From: Rariglobus sp.
GTDB lineage: Bacteria > Verrucomicrobiota > Verrucomicrobiia > Opitutales > Opitutaceae
DNA: 64,000 bases
Assembly (NCBI GenBank): GCA_029266495.1
Contig: JAQSWS010000052.1
Location: 1-64,000 of the forward strand
Direction of reading: 5' to 3'
In this document: one piece after another, positions 7,064 through 23,149 of the stretch
How the letters are laid out: each line of letters starts with the position of its first letter
Numbering within the stretch: position 1 is the first letter of the stretch
Made by a program: the position numbers and the translations under genes
The notes under the pieces: generated by a model
Told to the model about the DNA's origin: nothing
The model's input: the letters and a program-made list of their open reading frames with translations, nothing else
Databases searched by the model: none

Positions 7064-7074
7064 TGACTTAGCCA
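7064..7074. promoter_or_regulatory. Operator-like palindrome, site 1 (TGACTTAGCCA)
   Basis: One mismatch from the 11-bp palindrome TGACTTAGTCA. It lies 128 bases before the proposed start of the first GntR-SBP regulator, which suggests autoregulation. Confidence 0.6.
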
Positions 7075-7187
7075 AATATGGTTAATTTCTAAGTGTAAAC
7101 TTGATCTGATTATGGACGGGACCCCAAAAGAGCTTTTCGTCGACTCACCCATTGATTGACAGTCACGGATAATGGCCGACACTAATC

Positions 7188-7198
7188 TGACTTATTCA
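7188..7198. promoter_or_regulatory. Operator-like palindrome, site 2 (TGACTTATTCA)
   Basis: One mismatch from TGACTTAGTCA, ending three bases before the proposed ATG at 7202. If the upstream ATG at 7172 were used it would lie inside the gene; its position supports the later start. Bound regulator here could block translation initiation or early elongation. Confidence 0.5.
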
Positions 7199-7201
7199 GA
7201 T

Positions 7202-8602
7202 ATGCTCGCCAACAAAGTAACCGATGTTCGCCATTACATCCTCTCCTTGCTGGAAGAGGGAGCATTATGCGCAGGACACCAGTTGCCCGGCGCGCGCGAG
7301 ATCGCCCTCACACTGAGTATTTCCTTCGTCAAAGTTCAGCAGGCAATTGAGACCCTCTGCCAGGATGGCGTGCTGGAAACGGTATCCCGCAAGGGTACCT
7401 TTGTGCAAAAGGACTGGCACAAACGAGCGCTTCGGGAAAACGTGGCGGTCTACAATCAGCTGCATCGCATGACGTGGGCGACCGGTCTGCTGAAAGAGCT
7501 AAACCGTGAGATTGGCGGACTCCGGATGACTTATGCCTTTGAGCAAGGAATGCTCGAAATACGCACCACCCGCCATGTGCTCGTCAACCATGCGGAATAC
7601 ATGGATATCGGTGATATTTTCCGGGAGTGCTACCCCGATCAGTCGGTCTTTTTCGAACGCCCCATGGAGCCCTTCCGGGTCGGCGGGCGGACGGTCGGCA
7701 TTCCGTTCTCTTTTTCACCTCGTGTGATCTTTTATAATCCCACCGCCTTCGAGCAGGCGGGCTGCCCCTTGCCACGACCCGGGTGGAGTTGGGATGAATT
7801 TATCCAAACGGTGAGGCGCCTGAAAAGATCGGTGCCGCCGAATCGAGTCATCAATTGGCATCCTCAGTTTTTCCTTTGGATGAATTTCGTTGTGCGCTCA
7901 GGCGGTTGTTTATTCCGACCAAATGAAGACGACCCGGTGGCCGTGGACAGCCTGCAGACCTTGGCCGGCCTTAAGCGGTTTGCAGACTTGGGCGCCGAGT
8001 TAGGTTCGACAGACCCGGACGGGGACGCGTTTAGCGCGGCATTCCTGGACGGCGATGCCGCAATGCAGATAGCCGGGCGCGAACAGATGCATGCCTTGGC
8101 GAGCTCGAATAACCGCAATTGGGGAGCGGTGCCGCTGCCTCTGATGCCGGATGGACTCGATGTGACCGCCCAGGCAACGGATTTAATCTGCGTGAGAGCA
8201 TCCTGCGCGACATCTGCACTGGCCAGAAAGTATGTTCGGACGATGCTCTCCGAGCGCGTCCAAGACTACCTTGCCAAGGTCAAACAGAACATCCCGATCC
8301 GCAAAAGTTCGGCATTCCTAAGTCTTGATCTAGGCGACCCCCGTGACGCGCTTTTCGCGATGGAGCTGGGAAAGGTTTCCACGGCGTTTCATCTGGCACC
8401 ACCGTATCCAGGCGCACTGGTCACGGATGGAATCAACCAATTGCTCGCGGGTAAGGGCGATCTGGAAGAAGGACTCGCGGAACTGGCTCAAATGGCGCGA
8501 ACCTGGCTGGCGATCCATGGGCGGATGGCAAAGGGCTCCATCGATCGATCGCCAGCACGGACCGGCAGATCCGATCTCCAGGCGGTCGTGCCGCAGCTGT
8601 AG
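7202..8602 (+). CDS. GntR winged-helix/ABC solute-binding domain fusion regulator, copy 1
   Basis: 466 residues from ATG 7202; a start at 7172 adds ten residues. Residues about 5-70 are a GntR winged helix: a TDVRHYILSLLEEG helix, LPGAREIALTLSISFVKVQQ and the wing VSRKGTFVQ. The rest (about 85-440) resembles a family 1 ABC solute-binding protein: VGIPFSFSPRVIFYNP, GWSWDEFIQTV, a GDAAMQ motif and AVPLPLMP. There is no signal peptide or lipobox, so the binding domain must be cytoplasmic and probably senses an imported sugar or oligosaccharide. The later start is chosen because the paralogue begins at the matching MLNKVTDVRH. Operator-like palindromes lie upstream. I know of no characterised member of this architecture. 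Confidence 0.85.
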   Translation: MLANKVTDVRHYILSLLEEGALCAGHQLPGAREIALTLSISFVKVQQAIETLCQDGVLETVSRKGTFVQKDWHKRALRENVAVYNQLHRMTWATGLLKELNREIGGLRMTYAFEQGMLEIRTTRHVLVNHAEYMDIGDIFRECYPDQSVFFERPMEPFRVGGRTVGIPFSFSPRVIFYNPTAFEQAGCPLPRPGWSWDEFIQTVRRLKRSVPPNRVINWHPQFFLWMNFVVRSGGCLFRPNEDDPVAVDSLQTLAGLKRFADLGAELGSTDPDGDAFSAAFLDGDAAMQIAGREQMHALASSNNRNWGAVPLPLMPDGLDVTAQATDLICVRASCATSALARKYVRTMLSERVQDYLAKVKQNIPIRKSSAFLSLDLGDPRDALFAMELGKVSTAFHLAPPYPGALVTDGINQLLAGKGDLEEGLAELAQMARTWLAIHGRMAKGSIDRSPARTGRSDLQAVVPQL

Positions 8603-8670
8603 TTTTCATCATACGGCTCACAGCTCCCGCCATGATTGCAGCTCACCCCTTCGCCACGCCGGGCAACAAT

Positions 8671-9990
8671 CTATCCGCGAATCTTCAACCAAATCCTCGC
8701 AAACCGGGCCAGCTCCGAGAGTCCCTCCTCCAAATTCGCATTCTGGTCCAACAATTGACAGATTCCGTCTGAAATTAATGCACCAGGATACGGTTCGCCC
8801 AGGTTAAAGGCCGTGGAAATCTTGCCCATTTCCACCGCAAACAGCGCATCCCGGGGATCCCCCAGGTCGATGCTTTTGAACGCCGAACTCTTACGGATCG
8901 GAATATTCTGTTTTGCCTGCGCCAAGTAATCCTGCACCCGCTCCGACAGCATCGTCTGGACGTATTTTCGCGCCAGCGTGGGCGAGGTGCACGACGTCCG
9001 CACACAAATCAAATCCGTTGCCTGGGCGGTCACATCAAGTCCGCCGGGCATCAACGGCATGGAGGCCACCGACCACGTCTTGTTATCGGAACCGGCGAGA
9101 GCGTGCAGCTGCTGACGACCGTCGATATGCATTGCCGCCTCGCCCCTCAGGAAAGCCGCTTGAAAATCATCCCCATTGAAATCGAGGTGTCCCAATTCCG
9201 CGCCTAATTCCGCGAACCGGCGGAGCCCGCTTAACGTATTCGGATGATCAACCATCACCGGATCGGAGGCGTTCGGCGAAAACAACCCGCCGCCGGAACG
9301 CACGACAAAATTCACCCAGAGGAAAAACTGCGTATGCCAGTTGATGATGCGATCACGGGGAATCGAGCGCTTCAGGATACGCACCGTTTCCATAAATTCA
9401 TCCCACGTCCATCCGGCGCGCGGCAGCGGACAGTTGGCGCGTTCGAATACACCTGGATTGAAAAAAATCACGCGCGGCGAAAATGCCAGGGGTATCCCGA
9501 CCATCCGCCCGTTCACCGTGAAAGGCTTCATGGGCCCTTCGAAAAACACCGACTTGTCCGGATAACATTCCGCAAAGATCCCGCCGATGTCCATGTATTC
9601 GCCCTGGTTCACCAGCACATGCCGCGTCGTGCGAATCTCCAGCATGCCCTGCTCGAACGCAAAGGTCGTTCGCAGCCCTCCGATCTCCTGGTTTAACTCC
9701 GATAACAAACCACCGATCCAAGGCATCCGGAACAGCTTGTTATAGACGGCGAGATTCTCCCGCAATATCCGCTTCTCCCAGCCGGCTTGAACGAAGGTCC
9801 CCTTCCGCGACACCGTCTCCAGCACTCCATCCTGGCACAACGTTTCGACCGCCTGCTGCACCTTCAAAAATGAAATCCCCAAGGTCAGCGCCAGCTCTCG
9901 CGCTCCGGGCAACCGCTGCCCCGCTTTGAGTTTCCCCTCTTCAAGGAGATTAAGAACGTAGTGCCGGACGTCGGTGACCTTGTTGAGCAT
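8671..9990 (-). CDS. GntR winged-helix/ABC solute-binding domain fusion regulator, copy 2
   Basis: 439 residues, clearly paralogous along its whole length to the regulator at 7202-8602 and convergent with it. It has the same winged helix (LPGARELALTLGISFLKVQQ, VSRKGTFVQ) and cytoplasmic solute-binding domain (VGIPLAFSPRVIFFNP, GWTWDEFMETV, GEAAMHIDG). The recognition-helix region differs only slightly from copy 1, so overlapping DNA targets are possible, while pocket residues may differ. It lies 84 bases after the pseudopilin gene on the same strand and may be read through from it. Its own upstream region holds a different inverted repeat (9992-10031). Confidence 0.85.
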   Translation of the reverse strand: MLNKVTDVRHYVLNLLEEGKLKAGQRLPGARELALTLGISFLKVQQAVETLCQDGVLETVSRKGTFVQAGWEKRILRENLAVYNKLFRMPWIGGLLSELNQEIGGLRTTFAFEQGMLEIRTTRHVLVNQGEYMDIGGIFAECYPDKSVFFEGPMKPFTVNGRMVGIPLAFSPRVIFFNPGVFERANCPLPRAGWTWDEFMETVRILKRSIPRDRIINWHTQFFLWVNFVVRSGGGLFSPNASDPVMVDHPNTLSGLRRFAELGAELGHLDFNGDDFQAAFLRGEAAMHIDGRQQLHALAGSDNKTWSVASMPLMPGGLDVTAQATDLICVRTSCTSPTLARKYVQTMLSERVQDYLAQAKQNIPIRKSSAFKSIDLGDPRDALFAVEMGKISTAFNLGEPYPGALISDGICQLLDQNANLEEGLSELARFARIWLKIRG

Positions 9991-10074: not shown

Positions 10075-10869
10075 TTACGGAGACACCCAATAACCATTTC
10101 CCCACGCCATTTCTGATGTCAGGTAACGCGTGGAATCCTCCGGCTTCACATGTTTGACGTGCCCGTCGGCAAACGCCGCGTTGAAGCCGCCCGAGTGGCG
10201 CCGCCAGATCAGCGAACTGTCCTCGCCGAAAACGGACTTCTGATGCTCCAGTTTATTAACGTTGTCCCACACCCATTTGTCGAACGAGTCGGCCAGCAGC
10301 ACAAACCTGCCCGGGTTGGGAATCTCGCTCATCACCAGACTGTCGATGCGATGGGTGGCGGTCCCATGGGGATCGTAAAACATCTCGGATACTTTCGTCG
10401 TGGACGGAAGGTTGCCCTCCGCCGTCCACATGTAGCAATTGATGCCATAGGCCTGGCTGTCTTTTAAATACAAGACACGGGAATCGTAACTCAACGGACA
10501 ACTGGTGATGCGTTCGCCCAGCCGGCTCTCCAGCCCCGGTGCGTTCGTGAACTCCACGTAGCCTTTTTCCAACAGCAGCTGATCCCATCCCCACCACGTC
10601 GTGGATCCCGCCCTTTGCCAATAGATGGGGAGGCGCTGCCGATGCTCCGCAGCATAACCCAGCAGCACTACACTCGACGCCCGCAGGTTGCTTGTGCAAA
10701 GCGCGGACTTTGCCCGGTCCCTCACTCGTCCGATGCCCGCGAAGACCAGCGCCAACAAGAGCGCGACGATCGCGATCACGGCCAGCAACTCGACGAGCGT
10801 AAACGCCCGGAGGGCCTGGCCCCGCTTCGAAAAGCAAGCCGTCATGGAATAAGCCTTGATGGTGGTCAT
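10075..10869 (-). CDS. Type II secretion-type pseudopilin with H-X9-DG domain
   Basis: 264 residues from ATG 10869; ATG 10845 is also possible. The N-terminal prepilin motif is AFTLVELLAVIAIVALLLAL, with Ala rather than the usual Gly at the -1 processing position, followed by the hydrophobic helix. The C-terminal part contains H-S-G-G-F-N-A-A-F-A-D-G, which fits the H-X9-DG domain common in Planctomycetes and Verrucomicrobia pseudopilin-like proteins. It would be processed by prepilin peptidase and act at the inner membrane or surface with a secretion system. It starts 25 bases after the beta-helix gene on the same strand, so the two form an operon under the operator at 13855. Confidence 0.88.
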   Translation of the reverse strand: MTTIKAYSMTACFSKRGQALRAFTLVELLAVIAIVALLLALVFAGIGRVRDRAKSALCTSNLRASSVVLLGYAAEHRQRLPIYWQRAGSTTWWGWDQLLLEKGYVEFTNAPGLESRLGERITSCPLSYDSRVLYLKDSQAYGINCYMWTAEGNLPSTTKVSEMFYDPHGTATHRIDSLVMSEIPNPGRFVLLADSFDKWVWDNVNKLEHQKSVFGEDSSLIWRRHSGGFNAAFADGHVKHVKPEDSTRYLTSEMAWGNGYWVSP

Positions 10870-10894
10870 GTCGATTTTGCGATGTGAGGTTCGA

Positions 10895-13828
10895 TTAGCG
10901 GGCTGCGACGAGGGGGAGCTCGTCGCCCGCGAACAAGGGCCGGGTGCCAATCAGCACCGCATCCAGCTCGATTTCTTCGCGTGGAATCAAACGGAATTGG
11001 TTCTCCCCGGCATTCAGTTCCAAATGAGCCGTGGCCGCGACGAGCCGGCACCATTGCCATTGATCGCCGGCAACGACCGCCATGCGCAACGGAACGCTGC
11101 CGTTGAGTGAAGTGAACATCGAATCATGCAGCCCATAGGGCTTCTGGCAGCGGACCCGGAAGGCCACGTAATAAGCGCCGGCCGTGGGCGCGTTCACCGT
11201 GATCGTCAGCGCCTTGGCGCCTTCACCGGAAACCCCGGCTTCCTTGTCCACGAGGCGCACCGCCCCTCCACCCAGCGCCTTCGAATCGGCGATGAGTTCG
11301 AAACCGTCATGTCCCGGCAACGCTTCCGCCTCGATAAACGTGTGCATCCGCTCCGCCGTCGCCAACCCGTAAACCGAGACCGGCAATGACTCGCCATTCG
11401 CCAGCTTGAGAATCAGCGCGCCGGGCAACAGTCCGCGTCCCACCACATCCTTCGGATCGAGACTCACGCGAATCCGCGTTTCTTTGCCGGGTTGCAGCAC
11501 ACCTTGAGAGGGCTCCGCATTCAACCAGTCGGTCCCGCCGTTCTTCAAGACCGTGAACCGTGTCGGTGCCTTCAACCCATTCGTGTTGATCACCCACTCC
11601 TCGGCTTCGGAGGTTTTGCCTTCATCGCTCGTAAGAAAAATCTGTCCGTGGCTGCTGGTCACCGAGGTCCGCCGCAACGGCAAAGGAGCCGCGACAAAAA
11701 CGCCCGCGTCGATTTTCCCTTGCTTGGGCTGCCACGTCTCAAACCCGGGGATACGAATCCCCAAACCTGATCCTTCGCCGCCCGGCACCAGATGCAGCAG
11801 GCCTTTCTTCGCATCGACAAAAGTCACCGGGACCTTGACGCCCGATTGCTCGACCACGCCCGACACATCATAGGTGCCGGGGCCGCCGTTCGCGCCGGCG
11901 AACACATCGTGATCGTAGCGATTTTCATCCGCACGCTCGCCGTCGTTGATGCCCATGCCACTCGTCGCATACAGATTGTTAAAAGAGTCGCCGCGAAACA
12001 GTCCGCGATTTTTATCCCCGCCGTAACCGATCGCCGCCACGCCGTGGCCGAGGGTGAAAAACGTATTGTGATAAAAATACTGCTTCCCGTGCGAATTCGT
12101 CGGGCCGCCGCCATTTTTGACACCGGCACTGGCGGCGCCGCGTTCGTCGCCCAGGTTCACCACCAGGTTATTAAAGACATACGAGGGTCCGCGGAAATTC
12201 GGCGCCGTGCTGATACCGCACAACACACCTTCGATTTTGTTGCCGTAGAGACGCACGTTGGCCTGGCCGCCATCGAGTTCGATTCCGTCATCGTTCCCGT
12301 AAGCCAGGTAGTTCCCGTAGATGTCGGCATCCTGATTAAATCCGCCGTCCTGCTTTTCATTGCCATAGCCTTCGATCACGTCGTTCCAGCGGTGCCGGTC
12401 GCCGCCCACAAAATCATTATAGCGAATCACCAGGTTTCCCTTGCTGCGCACCAAGACCGCGGTGGGTCCGGCCGGATGCCCGTAAAACCACGAGTTCGCA
12501 TGATTGCGCGGAGCGTGGATAAAATTATTTTCAATCGTCACGTTGCTCGACAGATCCAGATACACGCCCGCATCCCAATTGATCGGCTTGTCCTCACCGG
12601 GAAGAAAATATTGTCCCTCACGTTTCGGATCCGCCACGCCGATCCGACCAAAGCCGGAGATATCACAATTACGAATCCGCACGTGATCCGAATCCTTGAG
12701 CTGAATGCCGTGCCGCCAGCCACCCTTGATCGTAACGCCCTCGATGATCACATAGCTGACTCCATTCACGAGCAGCGCCTCATTGGCCGTCTCACCGCCG
12801 TTAATCACGAAATCCGGCGAGCCCACGTAACGAATCCAGCCATCGGCCGTTCCACTTTGGTCGATTTTCATCGGACCGCCGCCCTTCGCCAGTTCGCTCA
12901 ACAAAATCGTGCGTGCGACCGGCACTTCATCGGCCCAGGTCTTGAATTCCCCGGCTGCCAGCAGCGAACCGTCGGCGCGCTCACAGCGCACGTCATAGCT
13001 GGTATTTTGCCGCAGCCCTAACAAAGACCCCCTCGGAGCGGGGTCCCTGGCCGAGGTCGAAAATGGATGCGCCTCGATCCACTTCGCCGCGCCTTTTTCG
13101 CGATATTTGATTTTGGGCAACGGCAATCCCGGCGCGGTCGGCTGGACATAGATGCTGGCATTTTCATAGGTCGGCACGATTCGCAGCGTCGCCGTGATCG
13201 AGGCAGCCGCCGCAGCCTCCCTGGCCTCGTCCTCCGCGGTCCATTCACGCAATGCCAGTCCAGCAAACCAAACGGTGCCGCCCACATGCCGCTCCTCCTG
13301 ATACCAGCGGCACAACACCTCCATCCGGTCCGCCGACGCAACCACACCCGCTTTGTCGGTCACACGGGTATCAATCTTCATCTCCACTTTCCGCCACGCG
13401 CCATCGCTCAAGCCTCCGTTCATTCTCACCAGTTCCGTTCGGCCATCATAAAGCTTCACCTCGATGTAGGCCGCGCGCTCCAGGTCGCTCTTCATATAAC
13501 CCGTCAAAACCCATTTTCCACCGTCTGCAGGAATCGAGATTCGCTGAGTCAACTGCCCGCTCCCAGCGGCCTTTGAACCCACCACCAACCGCACCGCCGT
13601 CTGAATTCCCTTTGGCAAATCCGCGGTCTCGGCCGTCAAAACCGTCCCCGCAGGATGTAATTGCCACCCTTCCGGAACGCTTAGCCCTTCCGCAATCGTG
13701 AGCGAAGGATTCGTCAAAACCGAATCGGCTCCCAACAAAGCCTGCCCGCAGAACACAGCCGCAAGCGACAACATGATCGCCGTATATGAGCCGAAGGCAC
13801 GTGCGGAGTAAGGAACCCATGAAAGCAT
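10895..13828 (-). CDS. Secreted right-handed parallel beta-helix multidomain protein
   Basis: 977 residues from ATG 13828, chosen because it gives a proper signal peptide ending in CGQALLGA and leaves the operator at 13855 upstream. Order: carbohydrate-binding-like beta-sandwich (about 35-195), fibronectin-III-like domain starting at RIVPTYENASIYVQP, right-handed beta-helix (about 325-690, with YGNDDGIELDGGQ and HNTFF-type turns), an Ig/BACON-like domain (WLNAEPSQGVLQPG) and a C-terminal sugar-binding-like domain. Such proteins are pectate-lyase-like polysaccharide lyases, epimerases or adhesins; I cannot assign catalytic residues. It is a paralogue of the divergent gene at 14019 and heads an operon with the pseudopilin. 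Confidence 0.82.
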   Translation of the reverse strand: MLSWVPYSARAFGSYTAIMLSLAAVFCGQALLGADSVLTNPSLTIAEGLSVPEGWQLHPAGTVLTAETADLPKGIQTAVRLVVGSKAAGSGQLTQRISIPADGGKWVLTGYMKSDLERAAYIEVKLYDGRTELVRMNGGLSDGAWRKVEMKIDTRVTDKAGVVASADRMEVLCRWYQEERHVGGTVWFAGLALREWTAEDEAREAAAAASITATLRIVPTYENASIYVQPTAPGLPLPKIKYREKGAAKWIEAHPFSTSARDPAPRGSLLGLRQNTSYDVRCERADGSLLAAGEFKTWADEVPVARTILLSELAKGGGPMKIDQSGTADGWIRYVGSPDFVINGGETANEALLVNGVSYVIIEGVTIKGGWRHGIQLKDSDHVRIRNCDISGFGRIGVADPKREGQYFLPGEDKPINWDAGVYLDLSSNVTIENNFIHAPRNHANSWFYGHPAGPTAVLVRSKGNLVIRYNDFVGGDRHRWNDVIEGYGNEKQDGGFNQDADIYGNYLAYGNDDGIELDGGQANVRLYGNKIEGVLCGISTAPNFRGPSYVFNNLVVNLGDERGAASAGVKNGGGPTNSHGKQYFYHNTFFTLGHGVAAIGYGGDKNRGLFRGDSFNNLYATSGMGINDGERADENRYDHDVFAGANGGPGTYDVSGVVEQSGVKVPVTFVDAKKGLLHLVPGGEGSGLGIRIPGFETWQPKQGKIDAGVFVAAPLPLRRTSVTSSHGQIFLTSDEGKTSEAEEWVINTNGLKAPTRFTVLKNGGTDWLNAEPSQGVLQPGKETRIRVSLDPKDVVGRGLLPGALILKLANGESLPVSVYGLATAERMHTFIEAEALPGHDGFELIADSKALGGGAVRLVDKEAGVSGEGAKALTITVNAPTAGAYYVAFRVRCQKPYGLHDSMFTSLNGSVPLRMAVVAGDQWQWCRLVAATAHLELNAGENQFRLIPREEIELDAVLIGTRPLFAGDELPLVAAR

Positions 13829-13854
13829 CATGAATCGGACGATGCCCGACATAG

Positions 13855-13865
13855 TGACATAGTCA
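13855..13865. promoter_or_regulatory. Operator-like palindrome, site 3 (TGACATAGTCA)
   Basis: One mismatch from TGACTTAGTCA. On the minus strand it reads TGACTATGTCA and is preceded by T, giving a TTGACT that could be the -35 box of the beta-helix/pseudopilin operon. The flanks match site 6: AAATTTA just before it and TATG shortly after on the minus strand. Confidence 0.65.
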
Positions 13866-13968
13866 ATTAAATTTCGGGCGATAAATGCGACCACCGCCTA
13901 AAACCCGAGAAGCGAACCAACGAAGCCAGCACACCCGTCTCTTCACCAATAACCGGCTTGACGCGATC

Positions 13969-13979
13969 TGGCTTAGTCA
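13969..13979. promoter_or_regulatory. Operator-like palindrome, site 4 (TGGCTTAGTCA)
   Basis: One mismatch from TGACTTAGTCA, 40 bases before the ATG of the large beta-helix gene at 14019. A TTGACG at 13958-13963 could be the -35 box, placing the palindrome between -35 and -10, as in repression. Confidence 0.65.
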
Positions 13980-14018
13980 GTAGGCGATTCATTGCTTCTT
14001 ATCGACCCCATAATCCCC

Positions 14019-17000
14019 ATGAACATCCGTTCTTATCTTTTCACCCCGCTCGTAGCACTCGTGCTACCGTTCACCGCCTCGGCCGCGACCATCAATATCG
14101 GGTTTTTGCCAAGTGCGATTAATCCACCCGCCACATCGAACCTCGATGGCGTGACGTGGAATCGCCTGACCCAGAATGCCGTGGTGAGCCCCCGCAGCCT
14201 GGTGGATTCCACCGGTGCGACCACTGGAGTTTCGGTCACGTCGAATACAACCCTGCAGTATACTTATGTCGCCCAGTCGGGCTTTCCCGGCCTGCCCGAA
14301 TCGATCTCCAGTGATTTCGTCTTCGGTTACGATGGCCCCTCCGCGGCCCCCTCCTTCACGTTTTCAGGTCTTGATAATAACTACACCTATACCTTCCGCG
14401 TGTATGCGATGAGGTATAATCAGACCGACATTCGTTCCGGCCTCTACACCGCCACCGGAGGCAACACCAAATCGGGAGTGCTCAACGCCAGCAATAACAC
14501 CAGCACGGTTTTAGTGCTGAGCAATGTCACCCCGAATGCAAACGGCTCCATCACGTTCAGCATGATCAAGGATGCGAGCAACACGAGCGCCGGTGCCCAG
14601 CCCGGTTATTTCCAGCTCAACGGTCTTCAGATCGAAGCCGTCCCGATCGCCGTCTCAGCCACGACCATCAACATCGGGTTTTTGCCGAGCGCAATTAATC
14701 CACCCGCTACATCGAACTTCGATGGCGTGGTCTGGAATCGCCTGACCCAGAATGCCGTAACCACTCCCCGCAGTCTGGTTAACTCCGCCGGAGCGGCGAC
14801 TGGAGTCTCCCTAACGTCCAATACGACGCTGCAGTATTCTTATGTCGCCCAGAACTTCCCCGGTCTCCCCGAGTCGATTTCCAGCGATTTTGTCTTTGGC
14901 CAGGATGGAGCCTCCGCGAATCCCTCCTTCACGTTTTCGGGTCTCGATAGCAATCAATCCTACACCTTCAGCGTGTATGCGATGAGGTATAATCAAACTG
15001 ACATCCGCTCCGGTCTTTACACCGCCACGGGAGCCAACACCAAGACGGGCGTGCTCAACGCCAGCAACAACACGAGCACCGTCCTGGTGCTGAGCAATGT
15101 CACTCCGGCTGCGAACGGTTCCATCACCTTCAGCATGATGAAGGACGCGACCAACACTGCCACCGGCATCAACGCCGGTTATTTTCAGCTCAACGGTCTT
15201 CGCATCGAAGCCACCTCGGGCGGCGGCGGTGGCGGCGGCGTCCAACCCTCCTCCACGTTCATCGATCAAAATCTCACCGAATTGATCACCACCAATCCCG
15301 GCTTCGAAAACGGCACGACCGGCTGGTCCAGCCAATACACGACGGTCCAATCCACCTACACCGCCAGTGGTGTGAATGCCGCATATCAGGATAGCGCCAA
15401 CTTCTACCGCATCTACCCCATCCGGACGTTCACGGCAGTGCCGGGAGCCTACTACCGCCTCAAGGCCAAGATCGCCACGGCCAACATGGCCATTGGACCG
15501 ACCTTGGATGTGCGCTTTTTCGACGCGAGCGGCACCCAGCTCACCTCTGCGAACGTCACCAATCCGACCGTGGCAGGCACGCGCCCGTTCCACGAGTATG
15601 CCACGGACTACATCATCGCTCCCCCCACCGCCGCGACCGCCAAAATTCACATCGCCACCAGCGCCAATGCAGGCGGCACCGTTTACTACGACGACGTTTC
15701 GTTCGTGAAGGTGAACAATCTGCCCGTGCGTGTCGTCCCCACCTACAACTCCCTCAGCGTTCACGTAGCCAAGGCCGGTGCCGGCTCCGGCATGCAGGCC
15801 CACGTCTTCTATCGCCCCCAAGGCACCTCCACGTGGCACGAAAGTTTCCTGCCCATCTACGACGCTGTCGCCGGCGAATACCGGGTCAGCATCGTCGATC
15901 TTCAACCCGACACCACTTACGAGGTCCAGGCACTCCTCGAAACCGGCGGCGTGGTTTCATCCGAGGCCGGCGCAAGGGCCACCACCTGGCCTGCGTCTCC
16001 GCCGATCGCCTCGACCGTCTCGATCGCCAGCCTCTACAGCGGTTCCGGCGAACTTAAGATCACGAATATGCACGGCTCTCCCACCGGCTGGATCAAGATC
16101 ACCGGCACGGGCACCAACGACGTCGCCGGCGGCTATAACACCACCACAGGCGCCGACAATGGCAGCGCCCTTCTCATCAAAAACTGCTCCTACCTGATCT
16201 TCGAAAACGTCCACGTGACCGGTGGTCGCTACAACGGCATCGAAATCCGCCACTCCGACTCAATCCGCCTTCTCCGTTGCGAGATCAGCGGCTGGGCACG
16301 CACAGCCAATGTCGTCAGCGCGGGCCACTCCTACGAATCCCAAGCCGACGTGACCGCCATTCCCAAACGCCCGATCGACCTTGATGCCGCCATCAAGCTC
16401 AACCACACGACCCGCGTTACGGTCGAACGCTGCTACGCGCATGATCCGCGTTCGGGCTCGAACACCTGGACCTACGGCCATCCAAATGGCCCGACCGCCC
16501 TCTACGTGATGAACAATCTCGAAACCGGCAACTCCGTCATTCGCTACAATGACTTTATCGGGAACGACACGGTGCGCTGGAATGATTCGATCGAAGGTTA
16601 TGACAACTCCGCCGACTCCGGCTCCTTCCACCGCGACAGCGATATTCACGGCAACATGCTTTGCTTCGGCAACGACGACGGCATTGAACTCGAGGGCGGT
16701 CAGAAAAACGTCCGCTTCTGGGGTAACCGCATCGAGAGCTTCTATCAGGGCATCAGCCTGGCCCCCAACAAACTCGGACCATCCTACCTCTATCGAAACG
16801 TCCTCTTTAACATGGGAGACCAAGAGGACGGCGCGTGGGCCGCAGTGAAAGCCGGCGGCGGAACCACCTTCTCCAAGGGCAAATCGTTCCTCTTCCACAA
16901 TACGTTCCACCTAAATGGCAATGGCCTGTATGGCGTCGGCTACGGCGAGGACTCCAACCGAGCCATGTTCATGGCCCTCACTCGAAACAACATCTTCTAC

Positions 17001-17642
17001 TCGACCAACAGCCACGTGAACTACCGGAACGCCATCAGCGACACCTCGCCCAACGCATGGAACAGCTTCGATTATGACAACCTCGCCTCCGCCACGTTGT
17101 CGTCCGCCCAAGTGACTTACGCCGCCGGTCAGGAATCCCACGGAATCCTCAACAACTACCCCACCTTCGTGGACCTCGCCGGCGGCGACTTCCGCCTGGC
17201 AACCGGATCCTCCGCACTGAACGCGGGCCAGCCCTTGGCCAACTTCGCCGAAAACTGGCTCGGCGCCAATCCCGACCAGGGCGCGTTCGAGTCCGGGGAT
17301 AGTTCACTGATTCCGAAGCGCCCCATCGCCATCAGCGCCAACAAATACCTGGTCAGCCTCACCGCGACTGCCAACGGCGGCTCGACCTCCTCCGCGGTCG
17401 TCACGCTCACCACCGGCAACCTCGGCGGCGCGACAGCCTACACCATCCGCAAAAACACCACCGGCACCGCCTGGCTGGCGGTCACGCCCACCGCCGGAAC
17501 GCTCAACAATAACTCCACCCAGTCGTTTACCTTCTCCGTAAACACCGCCGGCCTCGCCGCCGGGCAACGCGAAGCCACCGTGCTCGTGCGTCTGGCCAAC
17601 GGCTACTCCGTGCCGATCACCATCGTCGCCGCCGTCAACTAA
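14019..17642 (+). CDS. Secreted beta-helix protein with two N-terminal Verrucomicrobia-type surface domains
   Basis: 1207 residues from ATG 14019; the neighbour at 17856 begins with the same MNIRS signal peptide. Residues about 24-207 and 216-398 are two closely similar domains beginning TINIGFLPSAINPP. A Gly-rich linker (GGGGGGG) follows, then a carbohydrate-binding-like domain (about 420-565), a fibronectin-III-like domain (RVVPTYNSLSVHVAKA), a right-handed beta-helix (about 680-1080, with FGNDDGIELEGGQ) and an Ig/BACON-like C-terminus (WLAVTPTAGTLNNNST). From the Fn3-like domain onward it is paralogous to the divergent 10895-13828 protein. It lacks a PEP-CTERM anchor, so it is probably released or bound non-covalently. 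Likely a polysaccharide-active or adhesive exoprotein; function unproven. Confidence 0.82.
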   Translation: MNIRSYLFTPLVALVLPFTASAATINIGFLPSAINPPATSNLDGVTWNRLTQNAVVSPRSLVDSTGATTGVSVTSNTTLQYTYVAQSGFPGLPESISSDFVFGYDGPSAAPSFTFSGLDNNYTYTFRVYAMRYNQTDIRSGLYTATGGNTKSGVLNASNNTSTVLVLSNVTPNANGSITFSMIKDASNTSAGAQPGYFQLNGLQIEAVPIAVSATTINIGFLPSAINPPATSNFDGVVWNRLTQNAVTTPRSLVNSAGAATGVSLTSNTTLQYSYVAQNFPGLPESISSDFVFGQDGASANPSFTFSGLDSNQSYTFSVYAMRYNQTDIRSGLYTATGANTKTGVLNASNNTSTVLVLSNVTPAANGSITFSMMKDATNTATGINAGYFQLNGLRIEATSGGGGGGGVQPSSTFIDQNLTELITTNPGFENGTTGWSSQYTTVQSTYTASGVNAAYQDSANFYRIYPIRTFTAVPGAYYRLKAKIATANMAIGPTLDVRFFDASGTQLTSANVTNPTVAGTRPFHEYATDYIIAPPTAATAKIHIATSANAGGTVYYDDVSFVKVNNLPVRVVPTYNSLSVHVAKAGAGSGMQAHVFYRPQGTSTWHESFLPIYDAVAGEYRVSIVDLQPDTTYEVQALLETGGVVSSEAGARATTWPASPPIASTVSIASLYSGSGELKITNMHGSPTGWIKITGTGTNDVAGGYNTTTGADNGSALLIKNCSYLIFENVHVTGGRYNGIEIRHSDSIRLLRCEISGWARTANVVSAGHSYESQADVTAIPKRPIDLDAAIKLNHTTRVTVERCYAHDPRSGSNTWTYGHPNGPTALYVMNNLETGNSVIRYNDFIGNDTVRWNDSIEGYDNSADSGSFHRDSDIHGNMLCFGNDDGIELEGGQKNVRFWGNRIESFYQGISLAPNKLGPSYLYRNVLFNMGDQEDGAWAAVKAGGGTTFSKGKSFLFHNTFHLNGNGLYGVGYGEDSNRAMFMALTRNNIFYSTNSHVNYRNAISDTSPNAWNSFDYDNLASATLSSAQVTYAAGQESHGILNNYPTFVDLAGGDFRLATGSSALNAGQPLANFAENWLGANPDQGAFESGDSSLIPKRPIAISANKYLVSLTATANGGSTSSAVVTLTTGNLGGATAYTIRKNTTGTAWLAVTPTAGTLNNNSTQSFTFSVNTAGLAAGQREATVLVRLANGYSVPITIVAAVN
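14088..14639 (+). repeat. Surface-domain repeat, copy 1 of 3
   Basis: Codes for the first TINIGFLPSAINPP domain of the large beta-helix protein. It is similar at DNA level to copies at 14664-15212 and 17925-18476, with shared stretches such as ATCGGGTTTTT and CTCAACGCCAGCAA. Confidence 0.8.
14664..15212 (+). repeat. Surface-domain repeat, copy 2 of 3
   Basis: Second copy in the same protein, in direct orientation 24 bases after copy 1. The strong DNA similarity points to recent tandem duplication or gene conversion. Confidence 0.8.
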
Positions 17643-17796: not shown

Positions 17797-17807
17797 TGAC
17801 TTAGTCA
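17797..17807. promoter_or_regulatory. Operator-like palindrome, site 5 (TGACTTAGTCA)
   Basis: Perfect 11-bp palindrome. TTGACC at 17787-17792 could be the -35 box and the -10 would fall near 17810, so the palindrome lies within the promoter. It is 49 bases before the PEP-CTERM gene start. Confidence 0.7.
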
Positions 17808-17855: not shown

Positions 17856-18584
17856 ATGAACATCCGTTCTTCTCTGCTCACCTCGCTCGTGGCGCTCGCG
17901 CTACCGTTCGCCGCCTCAGCCGCGACCATCAATATCGGGTTTTTACCCAGTGCGATTAATCCAAGCCCCACCAGGGACTACGATGGAGTCATTTGGAACA
18001 CCTTGACTCAAAATGCCACGGAAACGCCACGCAGCATGGTTGATTCCGCCGGCGCCGCCACCGGAGTCTCAGTCACCTCGAATACGACCCTGAAGTATGA
18101 GTATATTGAACAGCACGTCTCCATTCTGCCCGAGAACATTTCCAGTAATTTTGTCTTCGGCCATGATGGAGCCCCCGCTAATCCGTCGTTCACCTTCTCG
18201 GGCTTGAATAGCGGTTATACCTATACGTTCAGCGTGTATGCCGTTCTGCTTAATCAAACCGACATTCGCTCCGGTCTTTATACTGCCACCGGCGGCAACA
18301 CCAAATCGGGAGTCCTCAACGCCAGCAACAACACCGGCACGATCCTCGTGCTGAGCAATGTCACCCCGGATGCAAACGGCTCCATCACGTTAAGCATCTT
18401 GAAGGATGCGACCAACAATAGTGCCGATGTCGGCAAGATCGGTTACTTCCAGCTCAACGGTCTTCAGATCGAGGCCACCCCTGCGGCCATTCCCGAGCCC
18501 AGCACCTACGCCGTGCTTCTTGGCCTCGGTTCTTTGGTCTGCGTCGTGATGTGCCGCCACCGCAACCGACGCAACGCCGCTTAA
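17856..18584 (+). CDS. Single surface-domain protein with PEP-CTERM anchor
   Basis: 242 residues: a signal peptide almost identical to that of the upstream beta-helix protein, one copy of the TINIGFLPSAINP domain (about residues 24-207) and a C-terminal PEP-CTERM signal (IPEPSTYAVLLGLG, a hydrophobic segment, then RHRNRRN). PEP-CTERM proteins are normally processed by an exosortase and kept in or released from the envelope. It has its own operator-bearing promoter and its own terminator. It looks like a membrane-sorted version of the domain found twice in the neighbour, perhaps a partner or receptor for it; that is inference. Confidence 0.88.
   Translation: MNIRSSLLTSLVALALPFAASAATINIGFLPSAINPSPTRDYDGVIWNTLTQNATETPRSMVDSAGAATGVSVTSNTTLKYEYIEQHVSILPENISSNFVFGHDGAPANPSFTFSGLNSGYTYTFSVYAVLLNQTDIRSGLYTATGGNTKSGVLNASNNTGTILVLSNVTPDANGSITLSILKDATNNSADVGKIGYFQLNGLQIEATPAAIPEPSTYAVLLGLGSLVCVVMCRHRNRRNAA
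17925..18476 (+). repeat. Surface-domain repeat, copy 3 of 3
   Basis: Third copy of the domain-coding repeat, here in the PEP-CTERM gene, about 2.7 kb downstream of copy 2 in direct orientation. Recombination between copies could swap anchored and unanchored forms. Confidence 0.8.
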
Positions 18585-18809: not shown

Positions 18810-20000
18810 TTAGCCCCGCCCGTCGGCAAAATAGGCCGCGATCCGCCCCTGAACGCGAGGCACGCTCAACGTCGCCCCGCCGCCGCGCAACGATTCGGTG
18901 GCGCGACAACCGGTGGCCACGCTTTCCCGGGCCGCCAGCGGTGACGTGGTGGTCTCCCCGCCGTAGCGCGCATAACGGATGAATTCCTCCATGATCCTCG
19001 GATCCGCCCCCCCGTGCCCGCCATCCCCGGGACGAACACGATAGGTGCGGTCCGCCTCCGCCCGGTAGCCGGAAGACCGCTTGTTCCACACCCGTATGAC
19101 CGTCCCCGCCTCGCCATTCCCGAAGTTTTCCATCCGCCCCCCGGTTCCGATGACCGTGTAGCTCCGCCAATAATCCGGAGTGTAGTGACATTGCGAATAC
19201 GTAGCCTGCACGCCATTGTCCAGGCGCATCATCATCGAGCTCAGGTCCTCGACATCGATCCGGTGATTAAGTCCCCGCGCGGACGTGGGCGGCCATGCGT
19301 CCAGCGTGCAGCCCTTCACCCCGGCGCGGGGTCCCTTAACCGCCGGCAGGCGCTGTCCCAGCCCTCCATACAGGGAAAGCGCGCCCATGCCGGCCACGTG
19401 GCGCGTGTAGCCGCCGCAAAGCCAGTGGATCACGTCAATGTCATGCGCCGCCTTCTGCAGCAGCAAGCCAGTCGAGTAGCGGCGCTCCGCATGCCAGTCA
19501 CGGAAGTAAAAATCCCCGCCATGTCCGACGAAGTGCCTCACCCAACAGGCCTTCACCTCGCCGATCGCTCCGCGCGTAATGAGGGCCTTCATTTTTCGCA
19601 CAAAAGGCATGTGCCTCATGTTGTGACCCAGGTAGAGTTTCGCACGGGTCTTCGCCGCCGCCGCCAGGATCCGATCGCACCCCGGGACGGTGAGGGCCAT
19701 CGGCTTTTCCAAATACACCGTGAGGCCGTGTTGAAGCGCCGCCACCGCCTGCTCCTCGTGGAGGTAATCCGGCGTCGCAATGATCACCGCATCGAGGTCC
19801 ACCCCCAACAACTCCGTGTAGCTTCGCGTGACGACTACGTCTCCGCCAAACTCCACGCGATTCTGCGCCAATACATCCGCATTCAGATCGCAACACGCCA
19901 CGATTCGAGCTCGCGCACCGGAACGATGAACAATCCCCGCCAAATGCCGGCCGCGCCCCCCTGAGCCAATCACCCCGACCCTAAGAAACATCGATTTCAT
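18810..20000 (-). CDS. Gfo/Idh/MocA family oxidoreductase
   Basis: 396 residues with the N-terminal Rossmann motif VGVIGSGGRGRHLAGI, the conserved EKPMAL near residue 98 and a DIDVIHWLCGG motif in the substrate domain. The family oxidises or reduces sugars, inositols or glycosides with bound or free NAD(P). No signal peptide is seen, so it is cytoplasmic. The gene has a perfect operator palindrome 28 bases upstream of the ATG and therefore seems to belong to the same regulon as the beta-helix and PEP-CTERM genes. A role in converting the sugar sensed by the regulators is plausible but unproven. It converges on the PEP-CTERM gene. Confidence 0.88.
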   Translation of the reverse strand: MKSMFLRVGVIGSGGRGRHLAGIVHRSGARARIVACCDLNADVLAQNRVEFGGDVVVTRSYTELLGVDLDAVIIATPDYLHEEQAVAALQHGLTVYLEKPMALTVPGCDRILAAAAKTRAKLYLGHNMRHMPFVRKMKALITRGAIGEVKACWVRHFVGHGGDFYFRDWHAERRYSTGLLLQKAAHDIDVIHWLCGGYTRHVAGMGALSLYGGLGQRLPAVKGPRAGVKGCTLDAWPPTSARGLNHRIDVEDLSSMMMRLDNGVQATYSQCHYTPDYWRSYTVIGTGGRMENFGNGEAGTVIRVWNKRSSGYRAEADRTYRVRPGDGGHGGADPRIMEEFIRYARYGGETTTSPLAARESVATGCRATESLRGGGATLSVPRVQGRIAAYFADGRG

Positions 20001-20028: not shown

Positions 20029-20039
20029 TGACTTAGTCA
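20029..20039. promoter_or_regulatory. Operator-like palindrome, site 6 (TGACTTAGTCA)
   Basis: Perfect palindrome. On the minus strand it reads TTGACTAAGTCA, so it also forms a likely -35 box for the oxidoreductase gene. Same flanks as site 3 (AAATTTA before, TATG after). Confidence 0.7.
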
Positions 20040-20240: not shown

Positions 20241-20315
20241 TGGTGCGGGCAGAGGGAGTCGAACCCTCTTCTCATGCTTGGGAAGCACACATAATAGCCG
20301 GTATACTATGCCCGC
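20241..20315 (-). tRNA. tRNA-Gly (anticodon CCC)
   Basis: 75 bases including an encoded CCA end. Acceptor GCGGGCA/TGCCCGC, D arm GTAT-ACCGGCTA-TTAT, anticodon stem TGTGC/GCATG with loop TTCCCAA, and T arm GAGGG-TTCGACT-CCCTC. It reads GGG codons. The D arm resembles that of E. coli GlyT. It stands alone between the oxidoreductase and the ABC genes, at the edge of the accessory locus. Confidence 0.95.
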
Positions 20316-20429: not shown

Positions 20430-22073
20430 TCACCGCGCGCCCTGCGTCTGCCTCGCCCTCTCCGCCAGCTCCACCGTGCGCAGGTATTGCGCGCGAAACC
20501 GGTTGCCCAGCTCGTTCGCGAGGCGGATCTCGTCCACCTTGTTTTTGGAGCGCAACGCCGCGCGGATGCGCCCGCTCGCGATCGCATAATCAACCGCCGA
20601 CAGGTCTTGGAACTCCGCCAGCGCCTCCGCCGGCATCCCCACGTCGATCAACGCTCCCCACGCCTTCTTCAGCTCCGGCTGCGTGTCCAAGCACATGACC
20701 CGGATAACAAACGCCATCTCGCGAAACAGCCGCCCCGTCCACTGCGGATGATAGATCAACCGCTCCTGCGGCGCATAAGGCTTCTCCTCCGGATCGCTGC
20801 GCAACGCGTCGATGCCGGCGATGTCATAAAAATCCTTCCGCACCGGCAGGCGCCTCAGCGCAAAATAATCCGGGCCGCCCGGCGCGCCCGGCTTCAGGTT
20901 CCACAACGCCTGTCCTTCCATCGACAGGGAAAACTCGATGAACGCGACCGCAACCTCCCGGTTCGGTGCGCCCCGCAACAAGCCCACCGGGTCGACCGAA
21001 GCGACCGCCCCGCCTTCAGGTGAAATGTAGGCCAGCCGGTCATCGGCCCCGCGCCGGCGCACCGCTTCCTGCTGCTGACGCCCGTAAAAATCGATGCCCA
21101 TGCCCACCGCGCAATCACCCGCCGCCACGTCAATCGGCACCTTTTGCGCCGAATCGGTGAAGTAGCGCGCATTCGCCCCGATTTTCTGCAGCAACCTCAA
21201 GCCCTCCAGCCAGCCGTCCGCCACCGCCTGCGCCTCCGCGGCCTTGCGCGCATCCTCGCTCGCAAACCGCACCGTCGCCATCCGGTTGCCCACGGTCTTT
21301 TGCATCTGCTGCTGGATCACGTTTTCAAACGCCTTGGCGATGGACCCGCTCTTCGTCGGATCGGCCAGCGCCACCTCGCTCATGTAACGCGGATCCGCCA
21401 GATCCTCCCAGGTGCGCGGCGGCGTGGTCACCCCCAGTCGCTTGAGCGAATCCCGGTTCGTGATGATCCCGAAGGAGCTCAGCACCGTGCCCACCCACAG
21501 CCCCTTTTTGTCCCAATAATCCTCCCCCGCAAACGACTGCGGGATGACCTCGTCGGTGAACCACTCCGGATGCAGCTGTAAAATCCCGCTGTCCACCAGC
21601 CGCCCCGCCTGCGCCTGACGGATGAAATCGTAGCTGCCTCCGCCATAAAAAAGATCGATTCCACAACTCACGCTCGACGCAAGAAACGCCGCCCGCGCCT
21701 CCTTCGCCTCCGCCGGGGCGTCCGCCGGAAGCGAACCGTTGGCAAAGCCGTTCAACACGTCGTTGCTCCAGGGCCTGCCCAGCGTGTTCACCCAATGATT
21801 CTGGAACGCCGCGGTGTATTCACCTTCCAGATACCGGGCGATCTCGGTCGTGCCCCCGATCAGGCGCCAGTCGAACGCCACCGTCCGCCCCGTGCGACCG
21901 TGATACCAACGAGTGAAGGCGCGCGCGAACTCGTGGCGGATGGCCTCGTTGTGCGGCGTGATGATGATCAGCGTATCGTCGGCCGCGGCGCGCGCCTCCT
22001 GCCGCGGACGCAGCGCAAACGGCAGCACCAGCGTGGCCAGCAAGGCGATGATGATGACGGCCTGCTTGACCAT
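20430..22073 (-). CDS. ABC transporter substrate-binding protein, Fe3+/polyamine-type
   Basis: 547 residues, longer than the usual 330-380 of this class. An N-terminal hydrophobic segment (AVIIIALLATLVLPFAL) is followed by LIIITPHNEAIRHEFARAF, typical of Fe3+- or 2-aminoethylphosphonate-type binding proteins, and by VGMGIDFYGRQQQ. About 150 C-terminal residues form an extra alpha-helical extension that I cannot assign. It acts in the periplasm, perhaps membrane-tethered. It starts two bases after the stop of the ATPase gene, so they are co-transcribed, but no permease gene follows or precedes. Confidence 0.85.
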   Translation of the reverse strand: MVKQAVIIIALLATLVLPFALRPRQEARAAADDTLIIITPHNEAIRHEFARAFTRWYHGRTGRTVAFDWRLIGGTTEIARYLEGEYTAAFQNHWVNTLGRPWSNDVLNGFANGSLPADAPAEAKEARAAFLASSVSCGIDLFYGGGSYDFIRQAQAGRLVDSGILQLHPEWFTDEVIPQSFAGEDYWDKKGLWVGTVLSSFGIITNRDSLKRLGVTTPPRTWEDLADPRYMSEVALADPTKSGSIAKAFENVIQQQMQKTVGNRMATVRFASEDARKAAEAQAVADGWLEGLRLLQKIGANARYFTDSAQKVPIDVAAGDCAVGMGIDFYGRQQQEAVRRRGADDRLAYISPEGGAVASVDPVGLLRGAPNREVAVAFIEFSLSMEGQALWNLKPGAPGGPDYFALRRLPVRKDFYDIAGIDALRSDPEEKPYAPQERLIYHPQWTGRLFREMAFVIRVMCLDTQPELKKAWGALIDVGMPAEALAEFQDLSAVDYAIASGRIRAALRSKNKVDEIRLANELGNRFRAQYLRTVELAERARQTQGAR

Positions 22074-22075
22074 GC

Positions 22076-23149
22076 TCAGGCGCCCAAAATCACCACGTCA
22101 TCGGGGTCGACGCTGGCGAACAGCTCCTTGTCCGAAGCAGTGCCGACGAAGCGCGGGTTCAGCTCGTAGATCTTCAAGGTCGTGCCGCCGCCCGCGACAA
22201 AGTCGTATTGCGCCACTTCGCCGAGGTAGACCGATTCGCCGATCCGCCCCGGCACGGCGTTGTGCCCGCGAGGCTCGCGTCCAAGTTTCCAGCACTCGGG
22301 ACGAATCGACAGCGTGACCGGGGCGCCCGCCGCAGGCTGGAAGGTTTTGTCACCCACCACGCCGAGAAAACGACCAATGGCCGTTTCCACCGCAATAAAA
22401 CCACCGTCCGGCCCGAGCACGCGCCCCTCGATGAAATCCGTCTCACCGATGAAGTGCGCCACGGTTTTGCACACCGGCCGGCGATAGACGTCCTTGGGCG
22501 AGCCCACTTGCAAAATTTTGCCGCCATCGAGAATCGCCATGCGGTCGGAAATCGAAAGCGCCTCCTTCTGGTCATGCGTCACGTAGACCGTGGTAAGCTT
22601 GAACTCCTTGCACACGCGACGGATCTCCGCGCGCATCTCCAGGCGCAACTTGGCGTCCAGGTTGGAAAGCGGCTCGTCGAGCAACAGGCAGCGCGGGCGG
22701 ATCACCAGCGCGCGCGCCAATGCCACGCGTTGCTGCTGACCACCGGAAAGCTGGTTTGGTTTACGCGCGGCGTAGGCCCCCATCCGCACCGATTCGAGCG
22801 CCTCGGCCACCCGGCGCTTGATCTCGGGCCTGGCCACTTTTCGCTCTTCCAGACCAAAGGCGACGTTCTCCGCCAGGGTCATGTGGGGCCAAAGGGCATA
22901 ACTCTGGAACATCATGCCCGTGTTCCGCTTGTGCGGAGCCAGTCGCGTCACGTCCTCGTCGCCGAAACAGATGCTTCCCTCCTCGGGAATGTAGAAACCG
23001 GCCATGCTGCGCAGCAGCGTCGTTTTGCCGCAGCCACTGGGGCCCAGCAGGAAGAACAATTCGCCCGGCTCGATGACCAGATCCAGGTTGCGCAACGCCA
23101 CGGTCGGACCGAACCGCTTGGTGAGATTTTGTATGCGAATTGAAATCAT
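22076..23149 (-). CDS. ABC transporter ATP-binding protein, FbpC/PotA-type
   Basis: 357 residues. Walker A GPSGCGKTT, signature LSGGQQQRVALARAL, Walker B CLLLDEPLSNLD, then the switch His in VYVTHDQ. The C-terminal 120 residues fit a TOBE regulatory domain. It would power import of an anion, iron chelate or polyamine as a homodimer with two permeases; the permease is absent here. It is followed immediately by the substrate-binding gene and diverges from hpt. Confidence 0.93.
   Translation of the reverse strand: MISIRIQNLTKRFGPTVALRNLDLVIEPGELFFLLGPSGCGKTTLLRSMAGFYIPEEGSICFGDEDVTRLAPHKRNTGMMFQSYALWPHMTLAENVAFGLEERKVARPEIKRRVAEALESVRMGAYAARKPNQLSGGQQQRVALARALVIRPRCLLLDEPLSNLDAKLRLEMRAEIRRVCKEFKLTTVYVTHDQKEALSISDRMAILDGGKILQVGSPKDVYRRPVCKTVAHFIGETDFIEGRVLGPDGGFIAVETAIGRFLGVVGDKTFQPAAGAPVTLSIRPECWKLGREPRGHNAVPGRIGESVYLGEVAQYDFVAGGGTTLKIYELNPRFVGTASDKELFASVDPDDVVILGA

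Follow-up and report, generated by a model that had tools for sequence, protein, structure and literature searches.

GntR regulators carrying a MalE-like solute-binding domain as predicted cytoplasmic sensors in Verrucomicrobiota, with a predicted palindromic operator and secreted beta-helix genes in their neighbourhood

AraR of Bacillus subtilis is a sugar-responsive repressor. It combines a GntR winged helix with a LacI/GalR-type domain and represents one of the six subfamilies into which GntR regulators are classed by effector domain, with NyGTNxACNy as the usual operator consensus (PMC4494728). Solute-binding proteins (SBPs) also occur as sensors in transcription factors, namely in SgrR of Escherichia coli and DsvR of Vibrio cholerae, which join a helix-turn-helix to SBP_bac_5 and are tied to sugar metabolism (PMC13060122), and the same principle underlies engineered chimeras of DNA-binding domains and periplasmic-binding proteins (PBPs), a library of which includes the DNA-binding domain of the GntR-family protein FadR (PMC6079105). 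Here we analyse two genes in a 64,000-nucleotide stretch of DNA from Rariglobus sp. (Verrucomicrobiota; contig JAQSWS010000052.1, positions 1 to 64,000; hereafter the window), each of which encodes a GntR winged helix followed by a sugar-type SBP. As proposed in an earlier note written from the DNA alone, the best-supported reading of their sequences is that a periplasmic-type sugar receptor has been recruited as a cytoplasmic sensor in a GntR fusion. We consider it probable that both proteins are autoregulated, local one-component repressors of the cytoplasm, which are released when the SBP domain binds its ligand.

Regulator gene 1 (P0001; 7202..8602, + strand) and regulator gene 2 (P0002; 8671..9990, − strand; 439 aa) are intact open reading frames (ORFs), lie tail-to-tail with 68 bp between them, and encode proteins that are 74% identical. 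The longest ORF of gene 1 starts at 7172 (476 aa), but comparison of the sequences makes the ATG at 7202 the better start, because the N-termini of P0002 and of an orthologue (L023) agree with it and a one-mismatch operator at 7188-7198 stays just upstream. Pfam placed the GntR domain (PF00392) at residues 18-78 of P0001 (E 7e-9; ~7223-7405) and 7-67 of P0002 (E 1e-10; ~9972-9790), in both cases passing the curated cut-off, and the winged helix was also detected in diverged family members. SBP_bac_8/SBP_bac_1 matched over ~residues 150-380 (E 3e-17 and 5e-15), within SBP domains spanning ~7481-8512 and ~9714-8683, respectively. Alignment of the C-terminal part with ten exported sugar SBPs by hhalign extended over 337 columns and P0002 residues 93-436 (99.4%, E 5e-21), so nearly the entire SBP chain is present. 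In the PDB, the C-terminal part drew profile matches to sugar SBPs, whereas the N-terminal part drew GntR proteins, including the AraR DNA-binding domain; NCBIfam returned GntR regulator matches that span the winged helix only, together with weak ABC sugar-binding-protein matches. UTRA, FCD and aminotransferase domains were absent at E values up to 1, and neither protein has a signal peptide, a lipobox or a membrane segment (maximal 19-residue hydropathy 1.26 and 1.17). These results bear out what the earlier note had read from the letters, that is, two convergent paralogues with an N-terminal GntR domain, a start at 7202, no export signal and none of the usual GntR effector domains. Its description of a whole family 1 SBP was slightly too strong, as the N-lobe lacks one segment of ~20-28 residues that exported SBPs have, namely the helix preceding the 'APDV' strand.

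By their winged helix the two proteins belong to the GntR superfamily, and by the domains detected they fall outside all six subfamilies of PMC4494728. The FadR, HutC and MocR subfamilies were rejected for lack of an FCD-like, UTRA or aminotransferase domain, and the YtrA subfamily, which has a short two-helix C-terminal domain of ~50 residues, because the C-terminal region here is SBP-like and comprises ~360 residues. This region matches SBP families rather than the cyanobacterial PlmA-type C-terminal domain (PMC4494728). Like the window proteins, AraR joins its GntR winged helix to a sugar receptor akin to periplasmic binding proteins, but its sensor is LacI/GalR-type (PBP type I), whereas theirs is a MalE-like type II SBP; Pfam assigned SBP_bac_1/8 and no Peripla_BP, and the AraR subfamily was rejected. 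A protein of the AraR-like kind (GntR + LacI-type; contig C144; L003 535-1752) is also encoded in the Rariglobus genome, with a prepilin-type gene close by (1935-2696). SgrR and DsvR resemble the window proteins in pairing a DNA-binding domain with an SBP domain but differ in a DNA-binding domain that is not GntR-type, in their SBP family (5 versus 1/8) and in their targets, and assignment to the SgrR class was rejected since SBP_bac_8/SBP_bac_1 and GntR were found and SBP_bac_5 was not. The family 1/8 sugar SBPs (MalE, GacH, CbpC and the 7c0f group) are homologous to the C-terminal domain across the chain, according to Pfam, the PDB profile search and hhalign alike. In contrast to the window proteins, however, they are exported, work with permeases, have a longer N-lobe and lack a DNA-binding domain.

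A publicly annotated 'extracellular solute-binding protein' of similar make-up in Mesobacillus raises the question of whether the window genes encode exported SBPs that serve an ABC importer and whose N-terminus has been mis-annotated. We regard the chance of this as practically nil and rejected it, as 43 family members have a continuous ORF with an N-terminal GntR domain, both window proteins lack an export signal, and no ABC permease (BPD_transp_1) is encoded on the contig of the window (C10). The missing co-located importer in turn suggests that the SBP domain acts here as a sensor only.

When 387 genomes of the phylum, which to judge from gene content is probably Verrucomicrobiota sensu lato, were searched with a profile, ~50 full-length members came up, frequently with more than one in the same genome, and 43 full-length members were aligned and used for the family, tree and upstream-region counts below (gene calls in relatives were made with a simple script). 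When the search was repeated with these 43, members matched near full length at E < 1e-50, save one further diverged member, and non-member matches were partial with E > 1e-38, leaving a clear gap to plain SBPs. In a tree, the SBP domains of the 43 group together in a single clade apart from plain SBPs (support 100/99). A chance pairing of the two domains was rejected on the strength of the 43 aligned members; sequence comparison thus confirms that the architecture is no accident and that the window pair is one case of a phylum-wide family. The Rariglobus genome holds just the two window copies, and among 149 other genomes of the same taxonomic family a single one (G135) encodes an orthologue, which is 72% identical. 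Contigs scanned with P0002 yielded plain exported SBPs only, viral contigs held no GntR-SBP fusion, and plasmid records held a single further one, WP_121614118.1 of Mesobacillus foraminis (GntR + SBP_bac_1; L094 3196-4614; plasmid record NZ_CP033045.1). This is the protein that carries the public label 'extracellular solute-binding protein'. It shares the domain order, the N-terminal GntR and an SBP domain that both Pfam models recognise, but is only ~20% identical, has a full-length N-lobe and is located in a sugar ABC-transporter operon, of which it is probably a misannotated cytoplasmic regulator. The branches involved are long, so the tree is compatible with a shared as well as a separate origin of this fusion. 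Public records thus already contain the architecture, under no other label than extracellular solute-binding protein. No description of a GntR domain fused to a family 1/8 SBP was found in our partial coverage of the literature, and its members seem so far to have gone unstudied. The earlier note likewise knew of no characterised member. The use of an SBP as cytoplasmic sensor has precedents in SgrR/DsvR, AraR and the engineered chimeras.

Comparison of the regions upstream of the regulator genes uncovered a palindrome, TGAC-N3-GTCA (best form TTGACTTAGTCAG), about which a generic listing of inverted repeats had been uninformative. It is perfect in 18 of the 43 upstream regions, against 0.04 expected from dinucleotide shuffles, and has one mismatch in another 11 (2.5 expected). 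The motif TGACWNAGTCA occurs in only three places of the whole 4.9-Mb Rariglobus genome, all of them before genes of this cluster. Across 18 genomes, 31 of 95 perfect 12-mers lie less than 10 kb from a regulator (0.82 expected), and 46 of the 65 sites in regulator neighbourhoods are intergenic, although intergenic DNA makes up 12% of the sequence. Within the window, perfect sites are found at 13855..13865 (TGACATAGTCA), at the head of a cluster of beta-helix, pseudopilin-like and regulator 2 genes; at 17797..17807 (TGACTTAGTCA), upstream of a PEP-CTERM-like gene; and at 20029..20039 (TGACTTAGTCA, or TTGACTAAGTCA on the − strand), 29 bp upstream of an oxidoreductase gene. Sites with one mismatch precede regulator gene 1 at 7064..7074 (TGACTTAGCCA) and, just before its start, at 7188..7198 (TGACTTATTCA), and another lies upstream of the second beta-helix gene at 13969..13979 (TGGCTTAGTCA). 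In the L023 orthologue, TGACTAATTCA precedes the start by 22 bp, and in same-order relatives and others like them (L075-L080) many cluster genes carry the site. Beta-helix homologues have it upstream in 12/34 cases and other neighbours in 27/339, and even an unlinked beta-helix copy (G233:C98) has one 93 bp upstream. From its distribution, TGAC-N3-GTCA is strongly predicted to be an operator with a local regulon, which gives substance to the earlier expectation that the regulators control adjoining genes.

Position relative to promoters points to the sign of regulation. In all 18 loci with a TTGAC-type site (at most one palindrome mismatch), a −10 hexamer that agrees with the consensus at 5-6 of 6 positions lies 16-17 bp further downstream. 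The operator in these loci therefore sits on the −35 box of a near-consensus promoter, which argues for repression. A ligand-responsive activator or dual regulator would find a parallel in SgrR, the closest functional analogue, described in PMC13060122 as an activator with additional repression of its own gene, and could make use of the two sites that some members have 35-78 bp apart. We nevertheless hold it unlikely, because a site over the −35 box next to a near-perfect −10 hexamer in 18/18 loci is repressor geometry and such promoters need no activator.

For the repressor we propose the following mode of action. A regulator dimer would bind TGAC-N3-GTCA through its GntR winged helices, as co-conservation of protein and site suggests, and by covering the core promoter it would block transcription of its own gene and of the local regulon. 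In the window this regulon would comprise the beta-helix/pseudopilin/regulator 2 cluster, the divergent beta-helix gene, the PEP-CTERM-like gene and a GFO/IDH/MocA oxidoreductase gene. The C-terminal SBP domain would serve as sensor and hold a saccharide that has entered the cytoplasm between its two lobes; this saccharide probably derives from degradation of the polysaccharide that is processed by the secreted proteins. Closing of the cleft on this saccharide may then cause a movement that frees the DNA. The sugar-related neighbours listed below were counted in support of this proposal.

The palindrome might instead serve another regulator, with the GntR-SBP gene merely a member of that regulon. 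LacI and AraC genes are occasional neighbours, and the TGAC...GTCA half-sites deviate from the NyGTNxACNy consensus of GntR proteins (PMC4494728). This explanation is nonetheless quite improbable: the GntR-SBP regulator is the sole gene family common to all neighbourhoods, the sites track the position of its gene in many genomes, and the helix-turn-helix region is well conserved in the family (SFxxVQxA) and unlike the usual GntR recognition helix, which is consistent with a different operator.

Several observations weigh against a ligand-released repressor acting at this palindrome. Ten of the 43 members have at best a two-mismatch site and four a three-mismatch site. The TTGAC-type site itself resembles a −35 box, leaving the evidence to the second half-site, and no consensus sigma-70 promoter was found in the window, the overlap with promoters being seen in relatives only. 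AlphaFold runs, with full P0002 aligned to P0001 and 17 exported SBPs or the SBP part aligned to P0001 and eight exported SBPs, gave mean predicted local distance difference test (pLDDT) scores of 46 and 45, and the bilobed fold is thus a prediction from sequence homology; a Foldseek search with the first, low-pLDDT model retrieved sugar SBPs at E 5e-8 with a template modelling (TM) score of only ~0.3, which we take as mild support for the SBP fold. The abridged N-lobe also counts on this side, and together with the divergence of sequence there it would fit an SBP domain that has lost ligand binding and acts only in dimerisation or as a scaffold, with regulation through another signal. To this we assign a low probability, as the SBP core and its invariant residues are kept in 43 members and the 337-column alignment with sugar SBPs suggests retained function.

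The pseudopilin-like gene (10075..10950, − strand; N_methyl, H-X9-DG-CTERM; likely true start near 10872) sits between regulator gene 2 and the gene for a secreted right-handed beta-helix protein of 999 aa (10895..13894, − strand; likely start near 13852), and the three probably form one operon. Divergent from these is the gene for a second beta-helix protein of 1216 aa (13992..17642, + strand; likely start near 14019), homologous to the first (35%). The beta-helix protein had no sequence match in the PDB, and both proteins are candidate uncharacterised polysaccharide-active enzymes. Their family is scarce, with 31 strong copies in the 18 genomes (0-5 per genome), 23 of which lie less than 10 kb from a regulator (0.27 expected). 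Downstream follow the genes for the secreted PEP-CTERM-like protein of 242 aa (17856..18584, + strand) and for the GFO/IDH/MocA-family sugar oxidoreductase (18810..20000, − strand), a predicted regulon member. Towards its N-terminus, the 1216-aa protein has two units of ~200 residues, each sharing ~72-74% identity with the 242-aa protein, and this likeness indicates a recent duplication and fusion.

Among the neighbours of the 43 members, an N_methyl pseudopilin-like gene immediately adjoins the regulator in 20 loci, while such genes make up 43 of 510 in these regions. Its start often overlaps or nearly overlaps with the regulator, and loci with this arrangement include L054, L056-L060, L064, L067, L070, L072, L082, L083, L085, L087, L088 and L090-L092. 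Oxidoreductases of the GFO/IDH/MocA type, glycoside hydrolases (GH1/5/35/42), a PL8 lyase and a rhamnogalacturonan-lyase-like protein also occur near the regulators; ABC permeases are outside the commonest neighbour families. In the window, genes for an ABC-type solute-binding protein (547 aa) and an ATPase (357 aa) lie side by side at 20430-23149. A tRNA-Gly gene (ccc; 20241-20315, − strand) borders the predicted regulon on its outer side, next to the operator at 20029. It is a possible boundary of an inserted island, which would fit the patchy occurrence of the regulators in the taxonomic family.

The palindrome TGAC-N3-GTCA and the linkage of the regulators to the beta-helix family are newly recognised here. 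Taken further, and with somewhat more confidence than doubt, we propose that these proteins constitute an additional GntR subfamily of single origin in the phylum, in which a MalE-type SBP serves as cytoplasmic sensor, the operator is non-canonical, and a conserved module of secreted beta-helix protein, often with a pseudopilin-like protein, forms a dedicated surface polysaccharide system. A type II sugar-binding-protein sensor is not among the GntR effector domains listed in PMC4494728. The fusion is old enough to have spread over a phylum, and, whereas the engineered fusions of DNA-binding domains and PBPs that serve as biosensors are synthetic, this family is their natural counterpart. The predicted operator and regulon make its function directly testable, and the regulators offer handles on poorly understood polysaccharide loci of the phylum, including beta-helix and pseudopilin-like genes without an assigned role.
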